Origin: a virus
Length of the DNA: 46,118 nt
Strand: one strand, 5' to 3'
IMG/VR virus record: IMGVR_UViG_3300010148_000023
Location: 1 to 46,118 of that record
Below the pieces are notes generated by a model. It was not told where the DNA came from and searched no databases. It worked only from the letters and a program-made list of their open reading frames with translations. This document shows, piece by piece, positions 18,595-46,118 of the stretch (position 1 is the stretch's first letter; the number at the start of each line of letters is the position of its first letter). A program made the translations under genes and the position numbers.

Positions 18595-18817
18595 TTCTTA
18601 AATTTCTCAGTAGTTGTTTGATTTCATTTATGTCATCTTTTAATGAATTCAATTCATCTTCCATCGATTCCATTTTTTTGCGATTTTTGGATCTAGAATT
18701 TTTGAGAGCAACGTACTTATTATATTCTGCTTGATCAACATTAACAATAGCAGTGCTCTCTTCTTCTCTTGCTAAATTAGCATGTCCTTTGACTGATAAT
18801 TTTCCCATATTAGGCAA
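18587..18817 (-). CDS. Small coiled-coil protein after the DUF4815 giant
   Basis: The 76-residue product begins MPNMGKLSVKGHANLAREEE and ends in a heptad-rich helix (MEDELNSLKDDINEIKQLL, about 52-70). A basic patch (KNSRSKNRKK) lies between. It overlaps the upstream 2767-residue gene by 8 bases and the downstream 128-residue gene by 8 bases, so the three are translationally coupled. The pattern suggests a small oligomerising structural or chaperone-like protein; I recognise no named family. Confidence 0.75.
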   Translation of the reverse strand: MPNMGKLSVKGHANLAREEESTAIVNVDQAEYNKYVALKNSRSKNRKKMESMEDELNSLKDDINEIKQLLRNLRNV

Positions 18818-28691: not shown

Positions 28692-28699
28692 TATTTATT
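28692..28699 (-). promoter_or_regulatory. Late promoter AATAAATA for gp8
   Basis: The minus strand reads ACGAATAAATAACTAAA, overlapping the stop codon of the gp7-position gene and 19 bases before the gp8 ATG. Confidence 0.55.
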
Positions 28700-31600
28700 C
28701 GTTATAATCAGTAGATTTCAAAGGAGTAGTTCTTTCAACAATTGGTGAAGTGGAAATTCCCAATAAACCGTTGTTGTAAGATGTAAATACTTTATTTTTG
28801 GATCTATTATTTAGTTGTATTCTTCCCCAAGAATACTCACCAAAAACTTCACTATGCCCTAACCCAGTTAGACCATTGTAACTTTCAACACTGACAGTTA
28901 CTTTGGCAACAAAGGTTTGACCTATTGACACCGCATGAGTTTGAGCAATGGATACGGATGATACTTCATATATGTTATCAAGGAAAGAATTTCCAGATCC
29001 AACAACTCCGTTACCTGATAAAGAAGTAACTCCATTACCAATATTTGAATTGGATACTACAAAGTAATATCCAGTTTGTATCCCACTAACTGTAATAGCA
29101 GTTCCAACAACATCAGAGTTTCTGAATAACGAATCACTAGGTAATAATAAATCAAATACTATTCCAGTGGAAACTCCAACTGTAGTTGTGGATACTCCAG
29201 AAATTATACCAAAGTCACCAGAGTAAGTAACATTAAGTACATCTTCAACATATCCAGAAGTTTTTGGTTCTGATATTAAAACTTCTGGTGGATTGGATGA
29301 TGTGTATCCAGTGCCAGGATTTGTAACACTTATGGAATTAATTGATCCAGATGATATAGAAGCAGTGGCACTACCTCTTTGAGTTGAACCTAAACCAACA
29401 GGATTTCCAATTGTTACTGACGGACTAGCAGTATAACCTGCTCCAGCATTAGAAATCTGTATTGAACTTATAGTTCCCAATCCAGAGACAACTGCGGTTG
29501 CTGAAGCAGAAACAATAGAGTCTTGAGAAATTATTCTAATGCTAGTATTTTCTGTTGTGTTTTCTTTTGCATTATCAAAGAAGGTTCTTACATTTTCTAC
29601 AAATGCAACTGTTGAACCTAAACCAACAGGTTGAATTAGATTAGTAGATGGGAAAATCAAAGGTTCGTATAGAGGTCTACTCTTACTTACAGAAACACCA
29701 TCTATAAATTTATCTTCTGTCTGTTTTGACCAAGTTACAGATCTAACATAAGTTTCGTCTTGATTAATACCTGGTCCTGCGTATACGTTTGTATCCACAC
29801 TATCAGTAGCATTTACTTTGACAACTAATCTTTTATCCTCATCAAACTCTAGATTTTCATCATAGATGTCTAAATCATCTCCACGTTTAACTTCTTCGAG
29901 AATGTCAACAAATTTAGTGTCAACTGCACCAGTTCCCTGATAGAATAAAATTCTAACAGTGTCCTCATTTTTAGGTGCTTCAGTGAAAGTAATAAAACTT
30001 CCACCCTCAAATACATATCCATCACCAGGAACTTGAAGTATATCATTTATGAATATAAGAAGAGTATCTTCGACATTTACTGAAGATCCTAATCTAGACT
30101 TGATTGTCTTTTGAACTCCATTTAATTTTATTGGGAATGATCTAGTTGAACCATTGAAAAGATCACTTATATCATCTAAAGGTAGTAGATCACCAAATAC
30201 AGACCCACTGAAAGTATTAGTGCTAGTTGATTCAATCGTCAATCTAAACTCTTGTAAAGTAACAGAAGAATTAGTTGGAATTCCAACAGTTCCTCCGACT
30301 CCAATAGTTAATTCTTGAGATTCTCCGTAACCAGATCCTTGCTTATTAATTTTGAAATCAATAATACTAGATCCTTGTCCCACTACTATATCAACTGTTG
30401 CTTCAGCACCGATACCACTAGAACCACCAGCATACACTAAAGGAATATTTGTATATGATAATGGTAGATCAAACACAACCTCTGGTGGATTTGTTGTTGT
30501 GTATCCTGTACCAGGATTTGTGATTGCAACACTAACAATGTTTCCATTACTAATAGCAGCAGTTCCGATGAACTCAATAGCAGGAGTTCCTGTGCTTGCT
30601 GTCTTAACACCTACATTTACTATTGGTTGAGAACCTGATCTATATCCAGATCCACTATTTCCAATCGAAATAGAACTAATAGTTCCCAATCCAGAAACAA
30701 TCGCAGTTCCACCAGCAGCAACTAATGGTTGATATCCAAAACCTTGAGTTGATCCAACAGATATAATGACACCACCAACAGGTATTCCTGCTGTATTTGG
30801 ATCAGATGAAACAGACATTGCTGTTCCTACAAACTGGATACTGGTTATTCCTGCATTTTCTTTTAGAGTATAATTACCAACTACGTTAACTGGATCAGTA
30901 TGTCTAGATGGACCTTGTGCTATTTGATTTATTAATATCAATCCATTGTCTGTGGATATTCCAGTTACATTTTGTCCACCAGATTTTAAGTTAAAGGAAG
31001 TTTTAAATCCAGTAAACTGATCTGAGATATCATCAAAAATAATATTTTTGAAATATGGTTCATGAGGAGTGCCTGGTACTCCAGACCTCATAAATGATCT
31101 ACCGTTAAAGGTAGAGTGAGTTGCTATTCCAATGAAATCAACTTCGTCTGGAGAACCAGATGTGGTTCCTATTGGAGTTAATCCTATGGGAGCAGTATAG
31201 AAGTTTATAATATTTTCTACTATGTTAAAGTTACCATCAATTTTAGTAACTAAATCAGAAATCGCATGGGTTGACAAACTAGTTCCCATCCAAGGTCTCT
31301 TAACTCTTAACTTATTAGTAGCACCAAATCCAACTACATCAACTCTCATAATCTCATCATTAATCTTAATCAAATCACCACCAAATATTGAAGTGATTCC
31401 AGCAACAGTAACTGAGTCTGTGGATAGATCTACTCCACCAACTAGAGTGGTTGTTACAGCAGTTGATACGATGGGGGATTGAATTACATTATCTAAACTT
31501 ACAACTACTTTAGAGTTTTGTTTCTTAGATGTTAGGGCATGAGATGTTCCAATACCAACAGCAGTTATATTCAAAATCTCTGGAGAAGATTTTAAAGCAT

Positions 31601-34600
31601 TTTCTGCAGATGATGCAAATTTTAGATTTGAATCATCAGATGCTACCACAAAGACACTAGATGGTAATTTATCAGTAACACCAACACCAGGAATATTTGT
31701 GGATGTTATGCTAATTGCACCTTGACCAGCATGAGTATAAGATAATTCCTCACCTGTTACGAAATAATGATCTGGTACGAATACCTTATCATTTTGAACA
31801 TCTACAACAGTAGAGGCACTTCCTATAAAGTTTCTCTTGAATATTGGTAATTGATTATGATTAAGATTAAATTCACGTTTGACATCAGTTTCAGTTCCAG
31901 TATAGTTACCGAAACCACTGTCTATTGATGCATTAGTTAAATCTATAGCACTATCTGCAATTGTAGGATCTGCTAATCCAATAGATGCTTGGAATACTCT
32001 TACATTTACATTAGCACTTGCTAGAGGAGTAAATTTAAGTTGTCGTGTTCCAGATGAGATAGTTGCAGTGAAATCACCAAGATTTCCTCCAGATTGAACT
32101 ACACCATATTCTGTCAAGAAAACATTTGTTCCATCATCTACAACTAAGATCTCAGATGCTTGATATTGACTATTTGTTGTATCTTGTATACTAACGAAAT
32201 AGTAAGCACTTCTATATTTGTCACTATACTCTGCAACCACATTTGCAGTAGGTGAAGCTGATGATGAAATTGTTGTAAGTCTGGAATCAACTTTTCCTGT
32301 ATCAAATAAATGAGTTCCAATTCCAGTCGCACCACCATAAACATCTATTCTTATTGTATTGAAATTGTATCCAGTTTGTGTAGTAACTCCTGCAGTTGGA
32401 GTAAAGGTAACATTTATATTTCCACCTGAAATAGAGGCATCAAATTCTCCAAGTCCTGTTGTTCCATCAGGAGTAGTAGTATCTGTATTAATCTGACCAT
32501 ACTCTAGCAATTCTACATTTGTTCCATCATGAACAATAGTCAATTCATCAAATTCAAAATTAGCAAATGATGGATTGGTAGCACCAGCTGAAACATTAAT
32601 CTTAGAAGATCTAACTGTGGTAGGAATTGTTAAAATGTTTGTGGCTGTTGTAGTTCCTAAAGCAACTGTAGCAGTGCTACTATTAATCTTAATTGAAGTT
32701 CCTAAATTAGTTGCACCAACTCCAGAAATAGTATCTTCAATATTGAATGCTAAGTTGGTGAGAGTGTAATCATTTCTAGAAAATTTCTTAGGGAAGAAAA
32801 GAAGTCTTCCATCAGTACCTAGAATATCAAAGTCAAATGAACCTAAATCTGCTATAGTGTATACACCACCATATTGTTGTATAAAGGCAGTGCTATTATT
32901 ATGCAAAAGAGAAACGACGTATATTTGTCTCTCTAAAGTAAATCTAGAATCTTGAATATAAACAATATATTTTTTATGTCTAGCAGACGATAATGAGAAT
33001 AAATCTACAGCAGTAAATCTATCGGTTCTTGGTTTATCATTAAATTCAGAACTAAAATCATCAATACTCAAAACTCTGTTTCCTACAGATTCTATGTAAT
33101 CTTGTAAGACTTTTGTTTTAAATACAATTTCATTAGATACAACTGTGTTGTCATCAATCTTCAAAGTTTTTTCAGTAACTAGATCATAATCATTAAAGGT
33201 ATTCAGATCTAAGAAAGAATCTAAATGTGAAATAGTATCTAAATTAGAATTAGGAATAGTTGTTATTCCAGAATTTATTTGACTTGTATCTGTTTCTATT
33301 ACTAAGTCACTAAATTTTTTAAAACCAGCAGTATGATTTAAAGAAGAAACAGTTTCATTCCATTTTTCTAATTCTACTTTAGATTTTAAAGCATATGAGA
33401 AATACTGATAATAATCATTGTCATGAAGTCTTTGTAAATTATTATTTAAAAATCCTGTTTCACGTTTCCATCCTTTTCTAACTATTGATGATGATCCAAC
33501 AGAATATCTAGAATTATATTTTAGTCTTTCTCTTATCTTACCACTTGTGTTTGATGATTTTCCAACTATGATTTTATCAGCTTGGAATACATCATCAGTT
33601 GATGTTTTTAACTGTCCACTCAAACCATTCCATGAGTTAACGATACCTATAGTTTTATTATTAGAGGTAACTATTTCATCTTTTTCAAATTCGTTCTTTT
33701 TGATGGTGATTCCAAAAATTGGGAACCATTTTTCTGGTATTATTTTACCAGATGAATTATTAGGATCAAAGTTGCCAGCAATGTCTCCACCAGATAAGAA
33801 GTTCTTCATACTGTATGCAACAGTTCCTAAAGTCCCTCCAATATTTGGATCAGTAGCAGTGATTTCAAATAAATTATAATTGTAGTTTGAAGAATTATAT
33901 CCTTTACCAGTTGTTCCTAGTCCAACACTTACATTCTCTACTAGAACTTTATCACCAACATTAAATGGATATTCATCAGTGCTACTAAAACTTGCTCCTA
34001 TAGTTACCGTAACATCTCTAGTTCCCAAGTTGAAATCAATTGAATCTATACTAACTCCATTTGAATTATTAACTGGAATTATAGTGGGAAGAGAATTGCT
34101 TAATTTTTTACTATTCTCTACAATGGTAACTTCAGATTCTCCTAAAGAATATTCCAAATCAACATCATCAATAATTTCCTTTGTCAATCCATCCAAAACA
34201 ATTAAGTCTGGTGCGATAGTATAGTATTGACCAACTGAACTAATACCGATTTTATCAAAAGATGATAAAGAATCGATAGTCAAAATTTGAGGAACTAAAG
34301 CTTGAGGTGTTAGAGTTTTATCTGCTGAATACTCAAATCCAATATCCTCTATATCAAATTCTTGAACTTGTCCTATTGTTGCACTGGATGGTTGAAGAAT
34401 GGCTCCAAATCCTTTTGATGTCGTAACTCCTACAGTCCTAACATCTTTAATTCCTGGTAGTTTCTTATAATCATAACCTTTATTGGTTACTGATATTGAT
34501 TTGATAGTACCAGTGACAGATTTAGAATTTGTCTGATAAGTAAAATTACCATCATCTTCAGTGTATAGATCTTGAGTAGTTGGTTTTGTTAAAACAAAAC

Positions 34601-37600
34601 TAAACGTAGTAGATCCAATACCAGTTATTGTTTGTACTGCACTTAAACTATTTGCTATCAAATTCAAAGAGTTGTTGTTATTTAAATTCTCAGTATCTTT
34701 TATTACTTCTTTTTTGACATTTGGTATTCCTTCAATGTTTGTTGGTATCAAACCATAGAATAATTTTGTTGGTGTAAGTTTGTTTATATCTAATGTTAAG
34801 TTAGCATTAGATTCTACTCCAATAATACCAGATTTGGTTACGTCAAAGTTTTGATCATTTTTTGAAGTGTAGTAAATATTTTTACACTCAATATCAGTGT
34901 ATAAATTAAAATCAAAAGCAGGATAATTAGTTCCTAATTTTGTAAATGCCAAACTAGAGTCAGACAAATCAAAATAAACCTGTTGATTCTTTTCAACTTC
35001 TATTTGTGGATTTATAGGATTAATAGTTCCAGATGATGCTGAAGTTATATCAACAAATTTAGAATTAATTTTTAAAGACTCATAATAATCATCACAGAGT
35101 TTTATTTTATTATTATCAACTACTTTTACAAAATAGAATCGATTATCAATTAAACCACCTGAAGGTGATGTTGATGTGTGTATAATTTTTTCACCATTAT
35201 ATAATTTGTGATTGATTATTGATATTGAATTGTTAGCAACATCTACATTAGAAGCACTAAAAGTTCTTGGGTTGATTATCAACCTTCTATTATAATCATT
35301 ATAAGTTACACTAATTGTGGTTGTTACTCCAACGATGGCATTGATGTATACTTTGTCATCAATCTGCAATCCATGAGTTGCTGCAGTTGCTACTGTTCCA
35401 TCAGTTTTTGTAATGCTTCCTTTTAAAATATTGGAATAGTTTGTTTTTAAACTATGAACAACACCTGCACCATCAGAAGTAAAGAATAAAGTACTTATGG
35501 ATGTTGTGCTGTCTATTCCGACAAAAGTTCCGTTATTACCAAAACCAACTCTTGCGGTAGCAATACCAACCAAATCATCATTTATCTTAGCAGCAAATAA
35601 AGATTGATTATTTTGAAGAGTGAATGAACTTATACCATCTGTTGAAACTCCAAGTGATGTTCCTCCACCATTGTTGTAGATGATTACATCTCCTGTCTCC
35701 AATCCATGATTAGGAATTCTTAATGTTTTACTTGGTACAAATACTTGACTTAATCCTATACCTGGATTTTCTATTGTTGCAGTAATTCCTGCACCTACTC
35801 CAGTGAGAGTTGATATTCCAACTGTTTCACTTGGATTGAAGTATAATTGTTTATTTAATTTAAAGTTAGAATTAGAAGAATCAAAAGATGATATGATAGT
35901 TAAACTTCTTGGATTTTGACTTAATATTTCATAAGACTTATGTGCAGAACTAACTGTAGATTCAACTGCTCTTTGAACTCTTAATCTAGATGAATCAGAT
36001 TCAACATTTAATACCTTTACCTTTTCTGTTCCTATTCCAAGAATATCGTTTTCTCTAACAAATGGGAAAACTAAATTACTACTCGAAACATTAAAGTAAG
36101 TGACAATTCCAGTAACAGAAGAATCTCCTACAGCATTTCCTAAAGTAAATCTATTAGTTTGGATTCCAGCAATATGTAATTGATTGTTTTGTAGGAAACT
36201 TGTATTTAATCCACTGATCGTTATGGAGTCTTGATTCTTTAAAGAATGTGGTGTTGTAGAATAACCTATTAGAGCACCCCTTGTGGGTATTGGCAAAAAT
36301 TCTACATTATCAACTGTGGTGGATGAAGTGCGAATAGAATGAATTTTTTTACCACCTAATATCGAAACTTTTGCAATTGCTCCAGTTCCACTACATCCTG
36401 TATCGTCAAATTCAACTTCATCACCAATACTATAATTGAATCCACCTGTGACTACACCAACAAAATCAACTTGACCACCATATATTGATTTTACTACTGT
36501 TTTTTGCTTATGAATTTTTGGTGATTCTACAAAGTAGTCATAAGTAGAATTTCCTTTTAATAAATTATACGGTGTTGTATTTCTAAAGTAAAAATTATTA
36601 TTGATATCAAAATTATCCTGATTTGATTTCCTATCTAAGTTAAAATCAATAGGAGTTGAATAATAAGTATCACCAATAAAGTATGGGAATTCTGGTTTGA
36701 AGAAATTCTTGAAATTTCCAATCAATTCAGCAATTGGATTTACGGTTGTAAAGTATGCATATACTCCTAAAGGAAATTCTGGAGTAACGCAAAATCTACC
36801 ATTATGTTTATCAAGATCACCATATCCATCTTCGTAAACATAATCATCAATGAAGAAACCATCTGCAAATACATCAGCCCCTTGATCGTTTAGTGGTTTT
36901 GGTCTAGAAGATAAAGGTTGTAATTTATATCCAGATCTAAGTGCTTTTATAGATCCACCTGTTATGGACTCGAATCCATAAGGTCCGTAGATGGGATTTC
37001 CATCATATGCCCACCCAATAATTGGTGAGTGTTTTGTTGATAATGATTCAACACCATTAGAATCTAAAACTAGATCAGTGGAGAAAATATCCTCATTATC
37101 GATAACATCTTTAGCAAAAACAGATCTTCTTAGTTTTCTAGGTGAATATAAATGAGCATACTGAATACCAAATTCAGTATTTAAACCTTCAGTAAGAACT
37201 CCATCATCATCAGCAATATCCGATGTTTCATTTAATCTGGTAAACTTATTGACTACCCATTGTCTTGATTTTGATTCAAATTTAGATTCTGATCCAGATG
37301 GTTTGACTATGATCGATGTATTTTCAGATTTATATCCTAATCCTGAGAAAGTAATGTTTACTGATTTAATTACACCGTTATCCAAAACTGGAACAATAGT
37401 AGCTCCCTTTCCTTCACCCAAAACTTCTAGATCAGGTGGTGAATTATATTCAGTTCCAGAATTAAGAACTAATACTTCAGTTATCTTACCATTAGAAACA
37501 ATTGGTTTTAATTGTGCTGATTGACCTGACTTTAAAGTAAATATTGGTTGACGATTGTAGTTTAATATTTCAGATGATCCATATCCCGTTCCACCATTCT

Positions 37601-40600
37601 CAACAAACACTGATTTTACAGATCCTCTGAATACTGGTTGTAAGACTGCATCAAAATCTTGACCTGACAACGTAGATACACCTATCACACCATCAACAGT
37701 TACTGATATAGGTGGATAATTAAATTCATGAATTCCTGATCCAACTGAAAGCAAGTCAACAAAATCTTCATTATTAAAATAGAAAAGTGGTGCTGTTGAA
37801 CCTATTCCAACTTCAGATAGTCTGAATGAATTATCATCTACTTTTGTAAGATAGTAATTACCTTCAGGCAATCCTTCTACTGCTGTTCCTTTTGGAATAT
37901 ATGATATCAAATCACCGTTTTTGTAATTGTGATTATTAACACTTATAATATTAGTTGCAGTATTGATTCCTGTAATACTAGTGTTTGTTTTTTGATTAAT
38001 ATAACCAATACCCGAACTTCCAATACTAATTGATTTTAAAATTTTCTTTTTACTGCTAGATTTGAAATTCTGAATACCTGTACCAAAGGATGTTAAGTTG
38101 ACACTAGATATGCCTAAAATCGCATCAGAAGAGTTATTATGAACTGAGACGGTAAATGCATCTTTAACTGAAACATGGTATGCTGCAGACGTTGTTAAAC
38201 CCCCTACAGAGGTCTCTCCATTAGTTTCATATATTACCTGTTCACCATCCCTAAATTTATGGAAACTGGAAAAACCAATTGTGTTGTTAGTAAGGTTTAC
38301 TAAATTTGCTGACTCTATTGAATTAAATTCAACACTATGTTGCAATAAAGAAGTATTTGCTTTTGCTCTTGCTCCTTGTCCATTACCACCAGTGATAGTA
38401 ATGATAGGATCATCAACATAATCAAAACCACCATCTATAATATCAATCCTATGTAAATTACCCTCTACATGGGCAATAGCAGAACATCCAGATCCACTAG
38501 AATCAGAAATAGAGAAAACGGGTGGATTTATAATATCATAATCTTTACCACCACCTGTAACATTGATTTCTTCAATAGATCCATAGAATATAGAGTCTTC
38601 AGATTTATAATTTAGTATTTCTACACCATTAACTAAAATACCAGTTGATCCAGAAATTGTTTTTATTTTTTCAGATGGGATATCTGTAGATTTTAACTTT
38701 CTGACTAATTTTTGTGATTGAAGAGTTTTATTGTCTAAATTTGTTGGAGTAAATCTAGAAAACGCAGTGCTTTCATTAATAGAGACAAATTGTCCACTGT
38801 TGATGTTTGATCTACTCTTTGCTATCTTGATAGTGTTGTCATCTATCTTTTTGATGAAGAAAATACCAGATATACTTAGATCACCATCATATGTTACAGA
38901 ATCACCAGTATAGAAACCGTGATTTAAGATAGTAATGTTTTCACCAGTGATAGTTCCATTAAAAATAGAAGATCTATCAGTAACAGTTAACTCCTCATTG
39001 AGATATGATGGAATTGATGGTGAAGCAACATATAAATCTAAATCTTTTACATACGTGTTCTGTACATTTGTAGTTTGAGTATTTAACTTAGGATATGATG
39101 CTAAGTTTGCCTTTGCTAGAACTTTTTGAACTGTATAAAATGTGGAAAGGTCTAATTCACCTTGACCTTCAATAATAAATTGAAAACTGTTTACGACAGT
39201 CTGTACCGTTGCACTTTTCTTTGCTTCATTCGTTGGAATGATTGAAATTTTATCTCCTGTAGAAAAATTATGCTTGTCAAATGTTTTTAAAAGATATCTA
39301 AACGGTGAATCTGATTTAAATGTTACAGATTCTATGTTATACTTAACAGGAATATTGTAAATCCAATTATTGGAAGCAAAACTCGTATCTCCTACTCCCA
39401 AACACTTTGGTTCTATAACATCACCAACATCCATTGATGAGAAGAAGAAATTTTGCTTAAGATCGGCAATAACTCCAGTAACTCTTACCTTACACTGAAC
39501 AGCAGTTCCAACTCCAATGAATCCATAAGCAAAATTATCAACTCTTATATTTTGTGCGTCATCTATTGCTCTTGTTACACCAGATACGCCATAAAACTGG
39601 TTAAATGATTTTGATTCATATGTTAACTTTGTTTCTACACCGTCAGAGTGCTTTGTGATCAAATTTCCACTCTTAGCAAACCCAACTGTACTATCTACAT
39701 CAAGAACAGTTGATCCAACAGATATAGAAGAGGTTGCTTTTGTAATTGGATGAATACTAAAGTCTCCAAAGAGAGATCCTCTGACTTGAATGTCTTTATC
39801 GTAGTCAAAGTCTAAACTTAAGACATGATAAGTCTTATCTCCTCTATTAATTTTCTCTACTTTACTTACTGCACCTCTTGCTGCTTTTGTATCTTCAGAA
39901 AAATCTTGAAATAGAGTTCTATTCTCTAATTCTTGAGGATCTCCCTCTAATGCCTCTACAACTAGATCTTTTGTGACACGATATTGTGCATCAGATGGTC
40001 TGAATAGAAAATCTCTTGGTTTTATAACATCTACATTCTCACCATACAATGCACGGAAGAGAATTTCAAAAGATTGATCAGTTCCCTTTGATTCGTAGAA
40101 ATTTTTTGACTGTTTTATAAAAATTCTTTTATCAATATTGCTATCTAACTCTCTTTCTTCAAATCCTGGTGTAATTTGAGTTTTTACCTTTTTGAAAAAC
40201 TCCTTCAAAAATAAAATACTTAAATTATCAACAACAGATCCAGAAGTATGAGTTGCAATCTCAGATTTTGTAAAAACTAACTCATCTTGAACATTTGGAT
40301 TCGTAAATGAAGTAATTCCACTAAATCCCCTTACACAACCAGTAAAAGTGTTTGTTGTAATTCCTGTATATGTAATAATCTCAGAATCAATCTTGAGAAA
40401 ACCATAAGTTTGAGGAAAACCAGTTGTAGAATCAACAGATATTACATCATCCGTAAAATTAAGGTTTTCAGTCAACTTTGCCGAATCTACAAGATTAGTT
40501 AACTCGTCAACTTTAATATATTTGTCAATATTCTTAAAAAGATCAAGAGTAAGACCTTGACTTTCTATAGATTTATAATATTCTGATAAAAAATCATTAA

Positions 40601-40679
40601 CAAGAGGAAAATCCTCCCGAATAAAGGCGGGCAGTTGATTTTTAACAACTGAACTAATCTTAACTCTGGTATCTACCAT
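28695..40679 (-). CDS. gp7: Giant baseplate wedge protein in the gp7 position (3994 residues)
   Basis: This gene lies between gp6 and gp8, the place of wedge protein gp7, but its product is nearly four times T4 gp7 (1032). The first ~240 residues look like a conserved head: NQLPAFIREDFPLVNDFLSE, FLKEFFKKVKTQITPGFEE, GTDQSFEILFRALYGENVD. The rest is a chain of beta modules: at least a dozen GxGYxxxPxV repeats, about eight NHGFxTGDxVxY modules, several strand pairs around E(I/V)xxYxG...RG, three VVHDGT/EYG modules and two NGVLQ-PG-type modules. A YHYH-like domain lies near residues 1206-1326. It probably forms the wedge core plus long surface arms. The name rests on position and N-terminus, not on an alignment. 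Confidence 0.85.
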   Translation of the reverse strand: MVDTRVKISSVVKNQLPAFIREDFPLVNDFLSEYYKSIESQGLTLDLFKNIDKYIKVDELTNLVDSAKLTENLNFTDDVISVDSTTGFPQTYGFLKIDSEIITYTGITTNTFTGCVRGFSGITSFTNPNVQDELVFTKSEIATHTSGSVVDNLSILFLKEFFKKVKTQITPGFEERELDSNIDKRIFIKQSKNFYESKGTDQSFEILFRALYGENVDVIKPRDFLFRPSDAQYRVTKDLVVEALEGDPQELENRTLFQDFSEDTKAARGAVSKVEKINRGDKTYHVLSLDFDYDKDIQVRGSLFGDFSIHPITKATSSISVGSTVLDVDSTVGFAKSGNLITKHSDGVETKLTYESKSFNQFYGVSGVTRAIDDAQNIRVDNFAYGFIGVGTAVQCKVRVTGVIADLKQNFFFSSMDVGDVIEPKCLGVGDTSFASNNWIYNIPVKYNIESVTFKSDSPFRYLLKTFDKHNFSTGDKISIIPTNEAKKSATVQTVVNSFQFIIEGQGELDLSTFYTVQKVLAKANLASYPKLNTQTTNVQNTYVKDLDLYVASPSIPSYLNEELTVTDRSSIFNGTITGENITILNHGFYTGDSVTYDGDLSISGIFFIKKIDDNTIKIAKSRSNINSGQFVSINESTAFSRFTPTNLDNKTLQSQKLVRKLKSTDIPSEKIKTISGSTGILVNGVEILNYKSEDSIFYGSIEEINVTGGGKDYDIINPPVFSISDSSGSGCSAIAHVEGNLHRIDIIDGGFDYVDDPIITITGGNGQGARAKANTSLLQHSVEFNSIESANLVNLTNNTIGFSSFHKFRDGEQVIYETNGETSVGGLTTSAAYHVSVKDAFTVSVHNNSSDAILGISSVNLTSFGTGIQNFKSSSKKKILKSISIGSSGIGYINQKTNTSITGINTATNIISVNNHNYKNGDLISYIPKGTAVEGLPEGNYYLTKVDDNSFRLSEVGIGSTAPLFYFNNEDFVDLLSVGSGIHEFNYPPISVTVDGVIGVSTLSGQDFDAVLQPVFRGSVKSVFVENGGTGYGSSEILNYNRQPIFTLKSGQSAQLKPIVSNGKITEVLVLNSGTEYNSPPDLEVLGEGKGATIVPVLDNGVIKSVNITFSGLGYKSENTSIIVKPSGSESKFESKSRQWVVNKFTRLNETSDIADDDGVLTEGLNTEFGIQYAHLYSPRKLRRSVFAKDVIDNEDIFSTDLVLDSNGVESLSTKHSPIIGWAYDGNPIYGPYGFESITGGSIKALRSGYKLQPLSSRPKPLNDQGADVFADGFFIDDYVYEDGYGDLDKHNGRFCVTPEFPLGVYAYFTTVNPIAELIGNFKNFFKPEFPYFIGDTYYSTPIDFNLDRKSNQDNFDINNNFYFRNTTPYNLLKGNSTYDYFVESPKIHKQKTVVKSIYGGQVDFVGVVTGGFNYSIGDEVEFDDTGCSGTGAIAKVSILGGKKIHSIRTSSTTVDNVEFLPIPTRGALIGYSTTPHSLKNQDSITISGLNTSFLQNNQLHIAGIQTNRFTLGNAVGDSSVTGIVTYFNVSSSNLVFPFVRENDILGIGTEKVKVLNVESDSSRLRVQRAVESTVSSAHKSYEILSQNPRSLTIISSFDSSNSNFKLNKQLYFNPSETVGISTLTGVGAGITATIENPGIGLSQVFVPSKTLRIPNHGLETGDVIIYNNGGGTSLGVSTDGISSFTLQNNQSLFAAKINDDLVGIATARVGFGNNGTFVGIDSTTSISTLFFTSDGAGVVHSLKTNYSNILKGSITKTDGTVATAATHGLQIDDKVYINAIVGVTTTISVTYNDYNRRLIINPRTFSASNVDVANNSISIINHKLYNGEKIIHTSTSPSGGLIDNRFYFVKVVDNNKIKLCDDYYESLKINSKFVDITSASSGTINPINPQIEVEKNQQVYFDLSDSSLAFTKLGTNYPAFDFNLYTDIECKNIYYTSKNDQNFDVTKSGIIGVESNANLTLDINKLTPTKLFYGLIPTNIEGIPNVKKEVIKDTENLNNNNSLNLIANSLSAVQTITGIGSTTFSFVLTKPTTQDLYTEDDGNFTYQTNSKSVTGTIKSISVTNKGYDYKKLPGIKDVRTVGVTTSKGFGAILQPSSATIGQVQEFDIEDIGFEYSADKTLTPQALVPQILTIDSLSSFDKIGISSVGQYYTIAPDLIVLDGLTKEIIDDVDLEYSLGESEVTIVENSKKLSNSLPTIIPVNNSNGVSIDSIDFNLGTRDVTVTIGASFSSTDEYPFNVGDKVLVENVSVGLGTTGKGYNSSNYNYNLFEITATDPNIGGTLGTVAYSMKNFLSGGDIAGNFDPNNSSGKIIPEKWFPIFGITIKKNEFEKDEIVTSNNKTIGIVNSWNGLSGQLKTSTDDVFQADKIIVGKSSNTSGKIRERLKYNSRYSVGSSSIVRKGWKRETGFLNNNLQRLHDNDYYQYFSYALKSKVELEKWNETVSSLNHTAGFKKFSDLVIETDTSQINSGITTIPNSNLDTISHLDSFLDLNTFNDYDLVTEKTLKIDDNTVVSNEIVFKTKVLQDYIESVGNRVLSIDDFSSEFNDKPRTDRFTAVDLFSLSSARHKKYIVYIQDSRFTLERQIYVVSLLHNNSTAFIQQYGGVYTIADLGSFDFDILGTDGRLLFFPKKFSRNDYTLTNLAFNIEDTISGVGATNLGTSIKINSSTATVALGTTTATNILTIPTTVRSSKINVSAGATNPSFANFEFDELTIVHDGTNVELLEYGQINTDTTTPDGTTGLGEFDASISGGNINVTFTPTAGVTTQTGYNFNTIRIDVYGGATGIGTHLFDTGKVDSRLTTISSSASPTANVVAEYSDKYRSAYYFVSIQDTTNSQYQASEILVVDDGTNVFLTEYGVVQSGGNLGDFTATISSGTRQLKFTPLASANVNVRVFQASIGLADPTIADSAIDLTNASIDSGFGNYTGTETDVKREFNLNHNQLPIFKRNFIGSASTVVDVQNDKVFVPDHYFVTGEELSYTHAGQGAISITSTNIPGVGVTDKLPSSVFVVASDDSNLKFASSAENALKSSPEILNITAVGIGTSHALTSKKQNSKVVVSLDNVIQSPIVSTAVTTTLVGGVDLSTDSVTVAGITSIFGGDLIKINDEIMRVDVVGFGATNKLRVKRPWMGTSLSTHAISDLVTKIDGNFNIVENIINFYTAPIGLTPIGTTSGSPDEVDFIGIATHSTFNGRSFMRSGVPGTPHEPYFKNIIFDDISDQFTGFKTSFNLKSGGQNVTGISTDNGLILINQIAQGPSRHTDPVNVVGNYTLKENAGITSIQFVGTAMSVSSDPNTAGIPVGGVIISVGSTQGFGYQPLVAAGGTAIVSGLGTISSISIGNSGSGYRSGSQPIVNVGVKTASTGTPAIEFIGTAAISNGNIVSVAITNPGTGYTTTNPPEVVFDLPLSYTNIPLVYAGGSSGIGAEATVDIVVGQGSSIIDFKINKQGSGYGESQELTIGVGGTVGIPTNSSVTLQEFRLTIESTSTNTFSGSVFGDLLPLDDISDLFNGSTRSFPIKLNGVQKTIKSRLGSSVNVEDTLLIFINDILQVPGDGYVFEGGSFITFTEAPKNEDTVRILFYQGTGAVDTKFVDILEEVKRGDDLDIYDENLEFDEDKRLVVKVNATDSVDTNVYAGPGINQDETYVRSVTWSKQTEDKFIDGVSVSKSRPLYEPLIFPSTNLIQPVGLGSTVAFVENVRTFFDNAKENTTENTSIRIISQDSIVSASATAVVSGLGTISSIQISNAGAGYTASPSVTIGNPVGLGSTQRGSATASISSGSINSISVTNPGTGYTSSNPPEVLISEPKTSGYVEDVLNVTYSGDFGIISGVSTTTVGVSTGIVFDLLLPSDSLFRNSDVVGTAITVSGIQTGYYFVVSNSNIGNGVTSLSGNGVVGSGNSFLDNIYEVSSVSIAQTHAVSIGQTFVAKVTVSVESYNGLTGLGHSEVFGEYSWGRIQLNNRSKNKVFTSYNNGLLGISTSPIVERTTPLKSTDYNE
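31980..32940 (-). repeat. Three VVHDGT/EYG modules inside the gp7-position protein
   Basis: Three related protein segments lie in tandem with spacers. The first (about 32745-32940) has YVVSLLHNNSTAFIQQYGG; the second (about 32360-32560) has LTIVHDGTNVELLEYGQIN; the third (about 31980-32170) has ILVVDDGTNVFLTEYGVVQ. Each is followed by a G-F/D-I-G-L-F-P strand pair. The 120-residue protein encoded at 10804-11166 has the same core. Confidence 0.7.
36700..37060 (-). other. YHYH-like domain inside the gp7-position protein
   Basis: The encoded segment reads GWAYDGNPIYGPYGFES, later GYGDLDKHNGRFCVTPEFP and GVYAYFTT. This order matches the YHYH domain known from bacterial secreted proteins (GWA-DG-PIYGP-G, then D--NG---TPE-P and the YHYH-box). 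Here the box has become VYAYFTT, so the two His residues that name the family are absent. Confidence 0.7.
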
Positions 40680-40697
40680 TTTATAATTGTATTATGG

Positions 40698-42698
40698 TTA
40701 GTACGATGGTTGTGATGCTGAAGGATCTCCTAAAACACTGAATGATGGTAAATCAATGACTTCAATACCGTCATTAGGAGAAATTCTTGCCAAATTTCCA
40801 TTATGGTAACTTGGTGTAGATTTATATAAGGTTCCTGAAGGATTGGATCCTGAAGAAATATCATCCGTTAACATATTTAACGTACTACTATTAATATCTA
40901 GTTGTAAATAAAGATCCTGTAATCCAATCACATCATTAGAACGAGGACAAGCAGAAATTTCTACTATTGGTTCACCTTGAACGGATTTTGATGTACTTGA
41001 GATATTAATTGCATCAATCATAATATCACCTCGTGCATAATCTATAGTTCCAATGTTTTTTCTCAAAATTACTGGTTCAGTTTGAGATCTCAATTTGAAT
41101 AAAAAGAGAGTTCCAGTCTGAGACTCAACATTTGGTGAATCACTGATGTAAACAACGTCATTTATACCAAAAACTTTAAATCCAGATGATTTTATATTAT
41201 ATGAATTCGCATTTTTTATATAGAATGGATTTCCGAAGCAAATTTCATACTCTGCGAACTGATTTAACCTTGCTCTCATGTCTCTTCTCATGATAACTGT
41301 CGTAATATTGGAAGTAATTGCCGAATTACTGTTATCAATAAGAGTTTGGAACTTACTATACTTGAATTTTGCACCATATTTGTTCATTTCACTTGAATTT
41401 GCAAATTCATTGATGTTATTTGATATAATTGTCTTCAAGAAATCCGCACTTGGTGCTAAATTTGCGTTATAATAGGCAGTAACATCAGTTTCAACGTATA
41501 AAAACTTCAAATCAAGGATTTCTGGGACAATTCCTGCCACTGAATAGTGTCTGAGTTTGTCTTTGAGGTTATCTTTGATGGAATTTGGTACAAAAGGTCC
41601 ATGAAATGGCTTGATTGTGATAAAAACCTTGCCAAATTGTGGTGGATCAAGTTCTTCACCACCAAAAACAGACACAGATTGAGTTTCTGGGTAAATTCTT
41701 GGTATGAGTGCCTCATAATCTGCTGCTGTCACAGCACGATTTTGGGATGCATAGATCCGAGGTGCAAAACTTTTGATAGAATCTACAGATTCAATGTCTT
41801 TTCCACCCTCAGATGGTAAAGTTGACGTAATTAAGGAGATTCCTTCACTCACTAAGTTGTTATTGTTGTCTACAATACGTCCGTTAAATGCAAATTGAGT
41901 GATTCCATTACCTTCTGCACCACTAGTTGTAACATACGAAACATCAATAACGTTAAGTGACTCTAATTTTTCACCAAATACACCATCACCAAAGAGTAGT
42001 TCATATCTTTCATCTTCAACCTCTTGAATAAAGAAGACTCTAGAGGTAGATGTAATCTCAAATAGACTATCTGAGAGTAAAAACTTCTTTGATGAAGTGC
42101 TTGCAGCAGTATCTCTAACTTCAACTCGTATTGTTGACGTATCAATATCAGAGTTTTCGAGAATATATCTGATAGGAGGAGATGGATTCTCTGATTGAAC
42201 TATAAAGTTTGCTGTAAGATACTTTCCTTCAAATATTTCAACATCTTCAAAACTTGCAATTCCATTTGAATCAACAGGAACCGTAACATCAGATCCAATC
42301 GCAAATGAATAACTCTCTGTTCCAAAGGTTGAAGATGCTGTACACACCAAACCCCTCTTTAAAGACAGTGTAACAGGGTTTGTTGAAAATCCAGTCGTAT
42401 CTACAAAAAAGGAAATACGAGCTCTTGCAGCAGTTTTTGAACGGGGTACATAACCAATATTACGTGCTAATGCAACAACATTCTCTCTTAATGTCGCACT
42501 ATCAATGAAAACCTCATTACTTACCATATTGGCATTGTAAGAGGAGATGTAAGTATTGTATGCAAGTACGTCTATGATTGCAGAAATGTTTGACCCTTCA
42601 AAATCATAGTCTGTGAAGTTACTATTTGCTCTCAAAAAATCTTTGAGAGAGACTTTTATCTGATTAAAGTCTAAATTTGTAAAATTTACTAGTGCCAT
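40698..42698 (-). CDS. gp6: Baseplate wedge protein gp6
   Basis: This wedge subunit forms the ring around the baseplate hub (gp6/J-like family). The 666 residues match T4 gp6 (660). Family segments are FTNLDFNQIKVSLKDFLRAN at the N-terminus, NVVALARNIGYVPRSKTAAR near 88-107, YELLFGDGVFGEKL and VTAADYEALIPRIYPETQSV. The start overlaps the gp25 stop by one base (TAATG), so the two wedge proteins are coupled. The giant gp7-position gene follows after 18 bases. Confidence 0.96.
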   Translation of the reverse strand: MALVNFTNLDFNQIKVSLKDFLRANSNFTDYDFEGSNISAIIDVLAYNTYISSYNANMVSNEVFIDSATLRENVVALARNIGYVPRSKTAARARISFFVDTTGFSTNPVTLSLKRGLVCTASSTFGTESYSFAIGSDVTVPVDSNGIASFEDVEIFEGKYLTANFIVQSENPSPPIRYILENSDIDTSTIRVEVRDTAASTSSKKFLLSDSLFEITSTSRVFFIQEVEDERYELLFGDGVFGEKLESLNVIDVSYVTTSGAEGNGITQFAFNGRIVDNNNNLVSEGISLITSTLPSEGGKDIESVDSIKSFAPRIYASQNRAVTAADYEALIPRIYPETQSVSVFGGEELDPPQFGKVFITIKPFHGPFVPNSIKDNLKDKLRHYSVAGIVPEILDLKFLYVETDVTAYYNANLAPSADFLKTIISNNINEFANSSEMNKYGAKFKYSKFQTLIDNSNSAITSNITTVIMRRDMRARLNQFAEYEICFGNPFYIKNANSYNIKSSGFKVFGINDVVYISDSPNVESQTGTLFLFKLRSQTEPVILRKNIGTIDYARGDIMIDAINISSTSKSVQGEPIVEISACPRSNDVIGLQDLYLQLDINSSTLNMLTDDISSGSNPSGTLYKSTPSYHNGNLARISPNDGIEVIDLPSFSVLGDPSASQPSY

Positions 42699-43099
42699 TA
42701 TCGTGTTGGCTGTAGTGCGAATTCTAATTGTTGTGGAAGAACATCAATACCAATAATGTCATATACTAAGACTACATTAAATGCATTACCTTCGTAATCA
42801 GGAATACAATTAATCTTTTTCAACTTAACTCTTGGTTCAAATCGTGAGATCGTAGTTTTTATCTCTTCCTTAATTGCTGATGCAGTTTGATCGTTTATGT
42901 TCTCAAAAATAGATTCTCTCACTCTTGAACCTAATTCAGGTTCAAAGAAACGTTCACCAGGTGATGTCAATATCAAGTTCCGTACAGATCTTGCAATCGC
43001 AGTTTCATTCTTAACCGTAATGAGGTCAGAATTAATCGGATTAATTTCAAATGACATGCTCAGGTCTTTAAACCCCTTACTTATCCGTTGAACAGGCAT
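42698..43099 (-). CDS. gp25: Baseplate wedge protein gp25
   Basis: This small wedge protein initiates sheath assembly at the baseplate (GPW/gp25 family, related to T6SS TssE). The 133-residue product matches T4 gp25 (132). The family core is seen in SVRNLILTSPGERFFEPELG followed by SRVRESIFENI. It is the first gene of the late baseplate block. A terminator and two overlapping-type late promoters lie directly upstream, and gp6 is coupled downstream. Confidence 0.96.
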   Translation of the reverse strand: MPVQRISKGFKDLSMSFEINPINSDLITVKNETAIARSVRNLILTSPGERFFEPELGSRVRESIFENINDQTASAIKEEIKTTISRFEPRVKLKKINCIPDYEGNAFNVVLVYDIIGIDVLPQQLEFALQPTR

Positions 43100-43184: not shown

Positions 43185-43952
43185 TTATATCACTCTTGGT
43201 TTTTCATGCCCAACACGTATCCGAGGATCACACCAAATCTCATATCCTTTCTCCTTAGCATCTAAGCAGAATGATACATCTTCTCCACACATATCCTGTA
43301 CTGCACCAGATTCAAATACCTGCATCTTCGGTGCGAACCAAGGATACTCTAAACTCTCAAAGACTCCATTCTTAATCATTACCCAACCAAAACCAGTATA
43401 GTCTACTGTAAATGGTTTCTTTCTTCTTGCCATTGTCTCTACAGTTTCGTGATTCATCACTCCACCATTTGATCTGAAATCATCTTCCTCTAACCAATGT
43501 GCAACAGATGTAGTCTTTCCATCTTCAGTACAATACCATCCAGCAGTAATTTCTTTCTCATTACCATCCTTATCAATTGCTAGATCACATAACTGCCAAA
43601 ACTTATTGACATCAAATACTATGTCAGAGTCAATCCACAACTGATAGTCATACTTAAGTTTACCATCCCAAGGTACTTGATTCGGTCCACGTAATACATT
43701 TGCACCTAATACTTTACAACGTGCAAAGTTTACCATTGAAGAATAGTCTTGACTAATCTGTATCGACATACCATTCTGTACTAAGTCAAAACAGAGTTGT
43801 ACAAAGTTCTTTAGGAAAATATAACTACATCCTCTACCAGGTAAACAAAAGACTATTGCTTTACCTTTCATACGTTCTTTGATAGCATCTATATCCCATA
43901 CTGGTTCATTTGCCTTGGGAGCAGCTGCTTTAACAGTAAATCCTTTTGCCAT
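43185..43952 (-). CDS. GT-A-fold glycosyltransferase-like protein
   Basis: The 255-residue product shows the layout of a nucleotide-sugar glycosyltransferase of the GT2 type. KAIVFCLPGRGCSYIFLKNF (31-50) fits the first strand and loop. YQLWIDSDIVFD has a DSD metal site at 108-110. GEDVSFCLDAKEKGYEIWCD (223-242) supplies the ED acidic pair of the acceptor loop, and His249 (VGHEK) may be a further metal ligand. It has its own sigma-70-like promoter and terminator and lies outside the late operon. The target (phage DNA bases, virion protein or host surface sugar) cannot be told. A DNA-modifying role would fit early expression in T4-like phages, but it is inference. Confidence 0.85.
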   Translation of the reverse strand: MAKGFTVKAAAPKANEPVWDIDAIKERMKGKAIVFCLPGRGCSYIFLKNFVQLCFDLVQNGMSIQISQDYSSMVNFARCKVLGANVLRGPNQVPWDGKLKYDYQLWIDSDIVFDVNKFWQLCDLAIDKDGNEKEITAGWYCTEDGKTTSVAHWLEEDDFRSNGGVMNHETVETMARRKKPFTVDYTGFGWVMIKNGVFESLEYPWFAPKMQVFESGAVQDMCGEDVSFCLDAKEKGYEIWCDPRIRVGHEKPRVI

Positions 43953-44345: not shown

Positions 44346-44554
44346 ATCAAAAAAGTAAAAAGGTCAAAAATTTTTTGCGGGATTTTTTTATATACAACTC
44401 GAACTGTCACCTCTGTAGGTTAGGGACTTATCGATTTTTATAAACGGCAACGCGAACCGCATAAAATATAAACAACCGCGTATAACTGCTGTTCACGAAG
44501 ACGAATAAAATAAGGTCACTAAGTGTTAATTAGTGACCACACAGTTCTTATTAC
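44346..44554. other. Intergenic stretch, 209 bases, with one strong hairpin
   Basis: No gene is supported here. It holds a patch of unusual, more GC-rich sequence (about 44441-44505, with CGGCAACGCGAACCGC and ACCGCG) and the perfect palindrome at 44514-44538. The part near 44360-44395 is A/T runs. It separates the 42-residue gene from the 33-residue gene. Confidence 0.6.
44514..44538 (-). terminator. Perfect 9-bp hairpin, probable terminator
   Basis: GGTCACTAA and TTAGTGACC form a 9-bp stem around a 7-base loop. On the minus strand it is followed by the T-rich TTATTTTATTC, so it could end transcripts of the 42-residue gene 16 bases upstream. The T tract is interrupted, so it may be weak or act as an operator instead. 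Confidence 0.55.
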
Positions 44555-44756: not shown

Positions 44757-44924
44757 CTACCTGTCAATTTGCGAGTCTTCGATATAACTTTCTACGGACT
44801 CATTTGGTTCTAATTTAAATACTTTTCTCCAATCAATATCACGAGCATTAAAATCATCGAACACGTCAAAGTTAAGTGTAACTCTAACTTGTTTTTTCTG
44901 GGTCTGAGTGTAAAGAACTGACAT
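44757..44924 (-). CDS. 55-residue acidic protein of unknown function
   Basis: The 55-residue product starts MSVLYTQTQKKQVRVTLNFD and continues VFDDFNARDIDWRKVFKLEP with an acidic end (ESVESYIEDSQIDR). It looks like a small strand-helix domain. A longer reading begins 63 bases further up, but that region holds a perfect TATAAT at 44959-44964 and a TTGACA. The transcript should begin near 44952, so the internal ATG at 44924 is the likely start. No Shine-Dalgarno sequence is seen. It is the first gene driven by the left-going divergent promoter. Confidence 0.75.
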   Translation of the reverse strand: MSVLYTQTQKKQVRVTLNFDVFDDFNARDIDWRKVFKLEPNESVESYIEDSQIDR

Positions 44925-44958
44925 GAAACTTAGGAGGGAGTTTGTGTTAGTTAATAAG

Positions 44959-44987
44959 ATTATACTGCCTTCTCCACTGTTTGTCAA
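44959..44987 (-). promoter_or_regulatory. Perfect sigma-70-type promoter, leftward
   Basis: TTGACA (44982-44987), exactly 17 bases, then TATAAT (44959-44964) on the minus strand. Transcription should start near 44952 and read the 55-residue gene at 44757-44924. Confidence 0.88.
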
Positions 44988-45015
44988 GTGGCACGATTGT
45001 ATTTATAAGTTTATA

Positions 45016-45369
45016 TGTGGAAAACGCAATATCCTCACAAAAACTTATCGGGGGGTCTTGACATTTCGGGGAGTTCTTGTTAGAATGTCCCCTAAGATCA
45101 CTATAAAAATCAACATTTAATAGAAGGATTTCAAGACAGTTATATACACCTTTTCCACACAATATTCCACAGTTATTACATACTTTTCCACAAGTCTGTT
45201 GAAAACTTATAAACAACGCATTTATATTTAAAAACACATTTATAATACTATTTTTAACGATTTCAGTCATAATTTACCTCTTTTCACTGCATTTTGCCTC
45301 TCAAAAGTATCATTAATAGTCTGTGTAATCTTCGAGACTAAGTTAGATTTATCCACATCATTTTCCACA
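45016..45369. promoter_or_regulatory. Cluster of five DnaA-box-like 9-mers
   Basis: Exact matches to TTWTNCACA are TTTTCCACA at 45151-45159, 45184-45192 and 45361-45369, TTATCCACA at 45349-45357 (plus strand), and TTTTCCACA on the minus strand at 45016-45024. TATTCCACA at 45163-45171 differs at one base. The motif is rare, so five in 354 bases is far above chance. The last two lie inside the 55-residue gene at 45267-45434. DnaA binding, an operator or another protein are all possible. Confidence 0.55.
45058..45086 (+). promoter_or_regulatory. Strong sigma-70-type promoter, rightward, with no gene downstream
   Basis: TTGACA (45058-45063), a 17-base spacer and TAGAAT (45081-45086) lie on the plus strand. 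An inverted repeat GGGGA (45068-45072) / TCCCC (45088-45092) frames the -10 and could be an operator. The transcript would run antisense to the small genes to the right; the only plus frame just downstream is 11 codons long. Confidence 0.7.
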
Positions 45370-45434
45370 GGCATTCTATCAATTAACATAAGAACATCTT
45401 GTCTTAATTGTGATTTGAGTTGTGATGTATTCAT
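45267..45434 (-). CDS. 55-residue helical protein, possibly read from a leaderless mRNA
   Basis: The product starts MNTSQLKSQLRQDVLMLIDR and continues MPVENDVDKSNLVSKITQTI, ending in a basic tail (FERQNAVKRGKL). It is probably a two-helix protein; the basic tail could bind nucleic acid. A longer TTG-started reading would begin inside the promoter. A TATAAT ends 6 bases before this ATG, so transcription should start at or next to the start codon, leaving no leader. Two DnaA-box-like 9-mers lie in the coding sequence. Function unknown. Confidence 0.7.
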   Translation of the reverse strand: MNTSQLKSQLRQDVLMLIDRMPVENDVDKSNLVSKITQTINDTFERQNAVKRGKL

Positions 45435-45440
45435 AGTACT

Positions 45441-45469
45441 ATTATACAACAATTAATGAGGATTGTAAA
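45441..45469 (-). promoter_or_regulatory. Sigma-70-type promoter close to a start codon
   Basis: TTTACA (45464-45469), 17 bases, then TATAAT (45441-45446) on the minus strand. The -10 ends 6 bases before the ATG at 45434. The element overlaps the 3' end of the 26-residue membrane peptide gene. Confidence 0.8.
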
Positions 45470-45752: not shown

Positions 45753-45996
45753 GAGAATATTCCTCTTGATTAATAAATTGTGCTGGCATATATTCTGATG
45801 TAACTTTATATCCACAATCTTTAATATACTCCCTAACTTGATAATAAAACTCATCACGAGATATTAACATTTTCTTTTGCATATCACCTCTGAAAGATAA
45901 TACTTTAAGCATACGATTGGAGATTAATTTGTTATCCCATGTTTTTACAGGATAGAAATCAACAACCATATTTCCATCTCTTGATGTTACTTCCAT
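45742..45996 (-). CDS. 84-residue small protein, tandem copy of the gene at the right edge
   Basis: It starts MEVTSRDGNMVVDFYPVKTW, then NKLISNRMLKVLSFRGDMQK, and the last third reads REYIKDCGYKVTSEYMPAQF before INQEEYSHVC. CGGAGA 9-14 bases before the ATG serves as a ribosome site. It looks like a small alpha/beta domain with a two-residue Cys content and no known family. The last 24 or so codons before the end are nearly base-identical to the end of the next gene upstream, so the two are recent duplicates that differ only in their last few residues. Confidence 0.75.
   Translation of the reverse strand: MEVTSRDGNMVVDFYPVKTWDNKLISNRMLKVLSFRGDMQKKMLISRDEFYYQVREYIKDCGYKVTSEYMPAQFINQEEYSHVC
45766..45835. 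repeat. 70-bp direct repeat, copy A
   Basis: This stretch matches 46049-46118 at 69 of 70 bases (only 45772 differs from 46055), with an offset of 283 bases. It encodes the C-terminal part of the 84-residue protein. Confidence 0.95.
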
Positions 45997-46033: not shown

Positions 46034-46118
46034 CTACGATTTCACCAGTTGATTGATAAATTGTGCTGGCATATATTCTGATGTAACTTTATATCCACAA
46101 TCTTTAATATACTCCCTA
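46034..46118 (-). CDS. 3' end of an upstream paralogue (cut by window edge)
   Basis: Only the end of the gene is present: REYIKDCGYKVTSEYMPAQF, then INQLVKS and a TAG stop. It is the same protein as the C-terminal part of the 84-residue product apart from the final residues. It ends 37 bases before the 84-residue gene starts. The start is outside the window. Confidence 0.65.
   Translation of the reverse strand, partial: REYIKDCGYKVTSEYMPAQFINQLVKS
46049..46118. repeat. 70-bp direct repeat, copy B, at the window edge
   Basis: The copy runs to the last base of the window, so its true length is unknown. The last 63 bases (46056-46118) are identical to 45773-45835. Confidence 0.95.

Follow-up and report, generated by a model that had tools for sequence, protein, structure and literature searches.

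The replication origins of phage T4 use transcripts and R-loops, not DnaA, the bacterial protein that binds TTWTNCACA. Iteron plasmid origins (R6K gamma, or pSC101 with its DnaA box) are built from phased repeats beside an AT-rich tract, the DnaA boxes being sites for a host factor. T4 oriE, which has been likened to these plasmid origins, comprises an early promoter and evenly spaced repeats that have no known binding protein and no proven role (PMC3016281). In the T4 record (NC_000866, 79355), oriE lies 1.7 kb upstream of gene 6, its primer RNA is complementary to the late gene 5 transcript, and the repeats recur with a 24-bp spacing inside the gene 5 coding sequence; no DnaA box is found between 76.5 and 86 kb. 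The DnaA box of cyanobacteria, TTTTCCACA, occurs in the majority of the phylum's oriCs, and its pairs, not single copies, are bound by purified domain IV of a cyanobacterial DnaA (PMC4674748, PMC3480399). In the sunlit ocean, few DNA viruses are as common as T4-like cyanophages; a search of an open paper library found no paper on their origins or DnaA boxes, which is not proof of novelty.

The DNA analysed here, hereafter the window, is the IMG/VR fragment IMGVR_UViG_3300010148_000023 (46,118 bases). Judging from its proteins (gp22, portal, sheath, baseplate wedge and others), it is a T4-like cyanophage (Kyanoviridae), its T4-like character having been recognised by a first-pass annotation of the letters alone, and its nearest isolates are the Synechococcus phages S-SM2, Bellamy, SynMITS9220M01 and S-SCSM1. 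The region ~44950-45370 (Table 1) is probably a replication origin of the promoter-driven T4-like build, located at the position of T4 oriE, in which host DnaA boxes would take the place of iterons. This reading draws together the phased sites, which occur in both orientations, the AT-rich tract, and a promoter that drives no gene.

The likeness to T4 oriE lies in an early host-type promoter whose RNA is antisense to late genes and reads away from gene 6, and in regularly spaced repeats that lie a few kb upstream of that gene (2.4 kb in the window and 2-8 kb in isolates, versus 1.7 kb in T4); by its sequence (TTGACA-17-TAGAAT, 11/12), the cyanophage promoter would need no phage factor. However, the repeats differ in sequence, those of the cyanophage being host DnaA boxes, which T4 oriE lacks, and they are intergenic (boxes other than those at 45349 and 45361 lie outside any convincing gene) whereas those of T4 lie within gene 5. 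Since T4 has no DnaA box in this part of its genome and carries its repeats inside a gene, the two loci correspond in position and layout but not in sequence. T4 oriF and oriG, which are R-loop origins, share with the cyanophage locus a promoter followed by an A+T-rich element, but the cyanophage promoter, with its TTGACA -35 element, appears to be of the early sigma70 type and not a MotA middle promoter; boxes are interposed between promoter and tract, and an R-loop is only putative. With cyanobacterial oriCs the locus has in common TTTTCCACA, spacings of the 11/21/30-bp type and adjoining AT-rich DNA (PMC4674748, PMC3480399), but it is carried by a lytic phage, has no dnaN or dnaA neighbour, stands behind a phage promoter and contains fewer boxes, half of the relatives having none. 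Like iteron plasmid origins, it has helically phased short repeats beside an AT-rich tract; unlike them, it has no Rep gene identified beside it, and DnaA boxes make up the whole array.

Table 1. Features of the candidate origin and its surroundings, in window coordinates
Feature	Position	Strand	Remarks
gp6, baseplate wedge	40698-42698	-	Landmark; with gp25, 2-2.4 kb downstream of the locus
gp25, baseplate wedge	42698-43099	-	Landmark; with gp6, 2-2.4 kb downstream of the locus
phrog_1574 gene	43185-43952	-	Glycosyltransferase-like; landmark used to fetch syntenic loci
Small early-type gene (MSVLYTQ...)	44757-44924	-	Behind leftward promoter; similar S-SM2 ORF at the same place (SSM2_088)
Leftward sigma70-type promoter	44959-44987	-	TTGACA-17-TATAAT; 12/12 consensus
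DnaA box 1, TTTTCCACA	45016-45024	-	Between divergent promoters; identical in L291
Rightward sigma70-type promoter	45058-45086	+	TTGACA-17-TAGAAT, TG-extended; 11/12 consensus
Conserved discriminator and leader start	45087-45103	+	AGATCAC at 45095-45101; near-invariant in relatives
DnaA box 2, TTTTCCACA	45151-45159	+	
DnaA box 3, variant TATTCCACA	45163-45171	+	Aligned site in L291 is a perfect TTTTCCACA
DnaA box 4, TTTTCCACA	45184-45192	+	33 bp from box 2, 21 bp from box 3
AT-rich tract	45205-45262	.	83% A+T, CATTTATA repeats; candidate duplex-unwinding element; conserved in relatives
Small ORF from ATG (MNTSQLKSQ...)	45267-45452	-	Contains boxes 5 and 6
DnaA box 5, TTATCCACA	45349-45357	+	Aligned site in L291 is TTTTCCACA
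DnaA box 6, TTTTCCACA	45361-45369	+	12 bp from box 5; absent in L291

The box array and its spacing

The 354-bp segment 45016-45369 contains four exact copies of TTTTCCACA, one TTATCCACA and one TATTCCACA. The first-pass annotation had counted five exact TTWTNCACA words and one near match here, and all are in place, the near match being TATTCCACA at 45163-45171, one of the box variants that recur at the locus among relatives. It had also estimated that well under one site was expected by chance and had seen no comparable cluster elsewhere in the window; indeed, the expectation for 354 bp is 0.067 against the five found (P ~1e-8, or ~1e-6 after correction for ~130 windows), and all four TTTTCCACA copies of the 46-kb window fall inside this segment. 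Over the whole window, TTWTNCACA is not enriched (9 occurrences versus 8.75 expected), so that the motif density is ordinary and only the clustering is unusual. As a control for TTTTCCACA, none of 500 permuted 9-mers had more than two copies within 354 bp. Chance or base composition, that is, random 9-mers in AT-rich DNA, would fit the whole-window count, which equals expectation, but is refuted by the clustering (P ~1e-8), by a 110-fold enrichment across relatives and by the phasing of the boxes; its probability is negligible. The identification of the TTTTCCACA cluster as a DnaA-box array of cyanobacterial type, made of putative host-DnaA sites, is strongly supported. The term DnaA-box cluster was thus apt: the 9-mer is host-specific, kept in relatives beyond coding constraint, and helically phased.

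Among relatives, 28 distinct same-strand box pairs are spaced by 11-13, 20-22, 32-33 or 42-43 bp, with a phasing (R = 0.89) that none of 20,000 random sets equalled; S-SM2 has a pair 21 bp apart at the place aligned to box 4. Pairs of TTTTCCACA are found in 159 of 195 cyanobacterial genomes, the exceptions including most of the smallest genomes (~1.6-1.9 Mb), and they are mostly 11, 20-22 or 30-31 bp apart among the matches listed; the reversed word is almost absent. Phage arrays and hosts are alike both in spacing and in the frequent 3' GA extension of TTTTCCACA. The presence of boxes in both orientations at the locus indicates that they are DNA sites and not RNA elements. A structured-RNA explanation was dropped, the leader RNA being predicted to be less structured than shuffled sequences (z = +1.5). 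A phage-encoded DnaA was rejected because the DnaA C-terminal domain is missing from all 17 complete cyanophage genomes, and any DnaA acting at the locus would be that of the host.

Phased repeats of differing sequence are known at some phage pac sites, and the locus adjoins the late structural operon, which brings up a pac-like packaging (terminase) site or a partition site whose repeats resemble DnaA boxes by chance in some lineages. However, TTTTCCACA with host spacings and a common 3' GA extension would be difficult to account for if DnaA were not involved, pac sites do not feature a strong early promoter or a melting tract, and packaging in T4-like phages is by headful, with no strict pac. 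A packaging or partition function is therefore very improbable.

Conservation among relatives

At 2-8 kb upstream of gp6, the conserved locus combines divergent promoters of the sigma70 type with the AGATCAC leader, a module of repeats and an AT-rich tract. Promoter, leader and tract are found at the matching place in S-SM2, Bellamy, SynMITS9220M01, S-SCSM1 and AG-345-O18, and a weaker form of this core in S-B05, P-TIM68, Syn19, DSL-LC02 and Syn9; the leader takes a degenerate form, GCTAAGAnnAC, in Syn9, Syn19, S-PM2 and DSL-LC02. An nhmmer profile of the locus, built without the isolates and without the window, gave a single match in each of the complete S-SM2, Syn9 and DSL-LC02 genomes. The matches in Syn9, Syn19 and S-B05 are weak on their own (E 0.02-0.09), and the profile has no match in S-PM2, whose layout was identified by eye.

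The boxes themselves are retained in relatives to a degree that exceeds coding constraint. The locus of L291, the nearest relative, is 57% identical overall to that of the window, and a DnaA box or an accepted variant is found at five of its six box positions despite letter changes (TATTCCACA to TTTTCCACA, TTATCCACA to TTTTCCACA). When 68 dereplicated loci were fetched via the promoter or the neighbouring phrog_1574 gene, blind to the boxes, no 9-mer in the 250 bp behind the promoter was more enriched than TTTTCCACA, which occurred in 33 loci versus 0.30 expected, a 110-fold enrichment; permuted words occurred there in 0.31 loci on average, and TTTTCCACA was found in none of 57 loci at 350-595 bp behind the promoter. 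Most boxes lie 25-225 bp behind the conserved promoter, beside the AT-rich tract. Six of the 17 complete cyanophage genomes (S-SM2, S-PM2, Syn9, Syn19, P-TIM68 and DSL-LC02) have box pairs within 60 bp, and all of these pairs map to the corresponding place, 2-8 kb upstream of gp6. The locus falls at 52.6 kb in Syn9, 19.2 kb in S-PM2 and 58.1 kb (57.9-58.3 kb) in S-SM2. A blind scan of a viral collection for three boxes within short gaps returned at least 120 loci, versus 17 for the reversed word; among the matches listed, T4-cyanophage proteins are encoded at 74 of 120 loci and the phrog_1574 gene at 49 of 120, always downstream of the boxes (median ~1.4 kb).

Two side observations concern these collections. 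In S-PM2 (19177-19333), annotated tRNA-Asn and tRNA-Leu genes overlap the DnaA-box array, so that either the annotation or the boundary of the array is questionable. High-GC viral contigs (L006, L028, L041, L046, L058, L078, L079, L091 and others) carry TTTTCCACA triplets, often 11-12 bp apart, without T4-cyanophage genes, and belong to other phages with DnaA-box arrays.

The promoters noted on either side of the boxes match the consensus closely (12/12 on the - strand, and 11/12 with a TG extension on the + strand). The leftward one, conserved in the alignment of relatives as 'taTAgaAt...AtTGTCAA', faces small - strand genes and, further on, structural genes. The rightward one, the core of which is highly conserved, is directed into the boxes; since the surrounding genes are all on the - strand, its RNA would be antisense to every neighbouring gene, with no co-directional ORF ahead. 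A 107-aa ORF across the region (44947-45270) was rejected, having no support as a gene beyond the ORF listing. The AT-rich run reported at 45205-45262 is confirmed at 83% A+T and belongs to the least stable 0.06% of the contig's 50-bp windows. Its counterpart in S-SM2 is the second least stable region of the genome, while those in Syn9, S-PM2 and DSL-LC02 are only within the least stable 1%. As a separate observation, the promoter spacer and discriminator (45058-45101) often form an inverted repeat around the -10 element, GCGAG..CTCGC in many loci and GGGGA..TCCCC in the window. No covariation was detected by mutual information, and a hairpin or operator is accordingly not claimed.

This arrangement of promoters raises the question of whether DnaA, or another protein in box-free relatives, regulates the divergent early promoters and thereby times the antisense RNA or the leftward early genes. 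DnaA is a known bacterial transcription factor, the boxes flank strong divergent promoters, and the box at 45016 lies between them. Against this, most boxes are 25-225 bp downstream of the promoter and not over it, the rightward promoter has no co-directional ORF and would yield an RNA predicted to be unstructured, and the AT-rich tract is left unexplained. Transcription control is thus a quite improbable role for the array.

Box-free relatives and exchange of the repeat module

About half of the relatives are without any DnaA box, box content being all-or-none. Degenerate boxes were considered and rejected: one-mismatch boxes in these loci are not in excess (1 versus 3.2 expected), so that box-free loci are truly box-free, although CCACAGATA-type repeats in some of them may be decayed boxes. 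On the phrog_1574 tree, at least 7 switches of box state fall on well supported branches (15 switches by parsimony), and the state differs between sister loci (L258 versus L276; L203 versus Bellamy, the latter box-free). Box-free loci keep the promoter, leader and AT-rich tract, and the slot holds other repeats, for example TTGAGAAT. Direct repeats in these loci number 67 versus 22.5 expected (~3-fold; the maximum of 500 simulations was 39), and their spacing follows the helix (R = 0.63), all 23 of 23 loci being in phase; a control stretch gave no such signal. Of 35 box-free loci, 16 contain TTGAGAA (1.3 expected), versus none of 36 box-bearing loci. Local tandem duplication may be the source of some repeats, but their phasing across unrelated sequences argues for selection.

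Two further groups of repeats were noticed. Eight box-free loci (L124, L299, L240, L312, L292, L209, L217 and L313) share an alternative module near GGGTAGTATCCAGAGAACTATTCTCAACAAGATAAAA, located 30-70 bp behind the leader, in the DnaA-box slot. Loci L214, L261 and L255 fill that slot behind the leader with lineage-specific repeats: GTGTTACACA, GTGCCCCACA and tandem 21-bp repeats with AAGATCTAGAACAGG.

Since half of the relatives have no boxes, the locus does not depend on DnaA: what is conserved is the promoter, the leader and the AT-rich tract, into which the DnaA boxes are set as one exchangeable module. A wider proposal, for and against which I see the case as evenly balanced, is that a single origin chassis (divergent early promoters, leader and AT-rich tract) is common to T4-like cyanophages, and that its initiator-binding arrays have repeatedly been swapped, host DnaA boxes being used in about half of the lineages and mutually exclusive phased repeats (TTGAGAAT/ATTCTCAA) in the others. 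The choice of initiator, host DnaA or another, would then shift as modules are exchanged, perhaps together with host range. Sister phages with and without boxes form a natural experiment on the recruitment of host DnaA by a T4-type replicon.

The gain and loss of boxes also bears on the main rival of the origin reading, titration of host DnaA. In this alternative the boxes are a decoy, similar to E. coli datA, that halts host initiation while the phage uses its own machinery. Repeated gain and loss could be expected of an accessory weapon, the array is tight and phased and made of exact host boxes, the 17 complete phage genomes encode no DnaA, and phage copy number would multiply the sites. 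A decoy, however, could sit anywhere, whereas the boxes are always next to the AT-rich tract, at 25-225 bp downstream of a single conserved promoter; box-free loci retain the core, the tract and other phased repeats in that very slot; and 2-6 boxes per genome are few. I therefore consider titration unlikely. At least one cyanobacterium is reported to do without DnaA (PMC4674748), a point that counts against the origin reading.

Proposed initiation and surrounding sequence

If the locus is an origin, the early host-type promoter (45058-45086) would make an untranslated, unstructured RNA antisense to the late operon, which would cross the phased protein-binding array and then enter the AT-rich unwinding tract. 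In the window phage and about half of its relatives, host DnaA probably assembles on the boxes and helps to open the tract; alternatively, it may keep the tract open for the phage's own primosome. The early transcript would be available as a primer or as an R-loop. In box-free relatives, the other phased repeats presumably serve another initiator. DnaA binding, duplex opening, priming and origin firing at this place are what I infer from the layout. The locus is a single-copy, alignable candidate origin, recognisable by sequence in many isolates and metagenomic contigs, and it is relevant to the T4 oriE repeats, which lack an explained role.

GC skew keeps its sign across the locus in the window, S-SM2, Syn9, S-PM2 and DSL-LC02, and GC or AT skew was discarded as origin evidence: in the absence of a switch, skew neither supports nor locates an origin. 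T4 oriA and oriC are likewise without a skew switch (PMC3016281). The first-pass interpretation stands as regards the DnaA-box cluster and the candidate origin in a T4-like phage, the latter strongly supported by a conserved promoter and AT-rich core at the T4 oriE position, while motif density and skew gave it nothing. The contrast that it implied, of T4 using transcripts and this phage using DnaA, is probably wrong, the promoter, leader and tract being conserved and the boxes exchangeable.

Some features of the surrounding sequence deserve mention. A 70-bp direct repeat (45766-45835 and 46049-46118, 99% identical), the second copy of which stops exactly at the contig end, probably reflects either an artefact of the assembly end or the recent duplication of part of a gene. 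Upstream (- strand) of the small genes, GTCACCTCTGTAGGTTAGG at 44403-44424 is conserved in Bellamy, SynMITS9220M01 and S-SCSM1, and partly in S-B05. Two huge structural ORFs are present, at 18810-27113 (2767 aa) and at 28695-40679 (3994 aa), the latter corresponding to the position of the gp7 wedge initiator in relatives.
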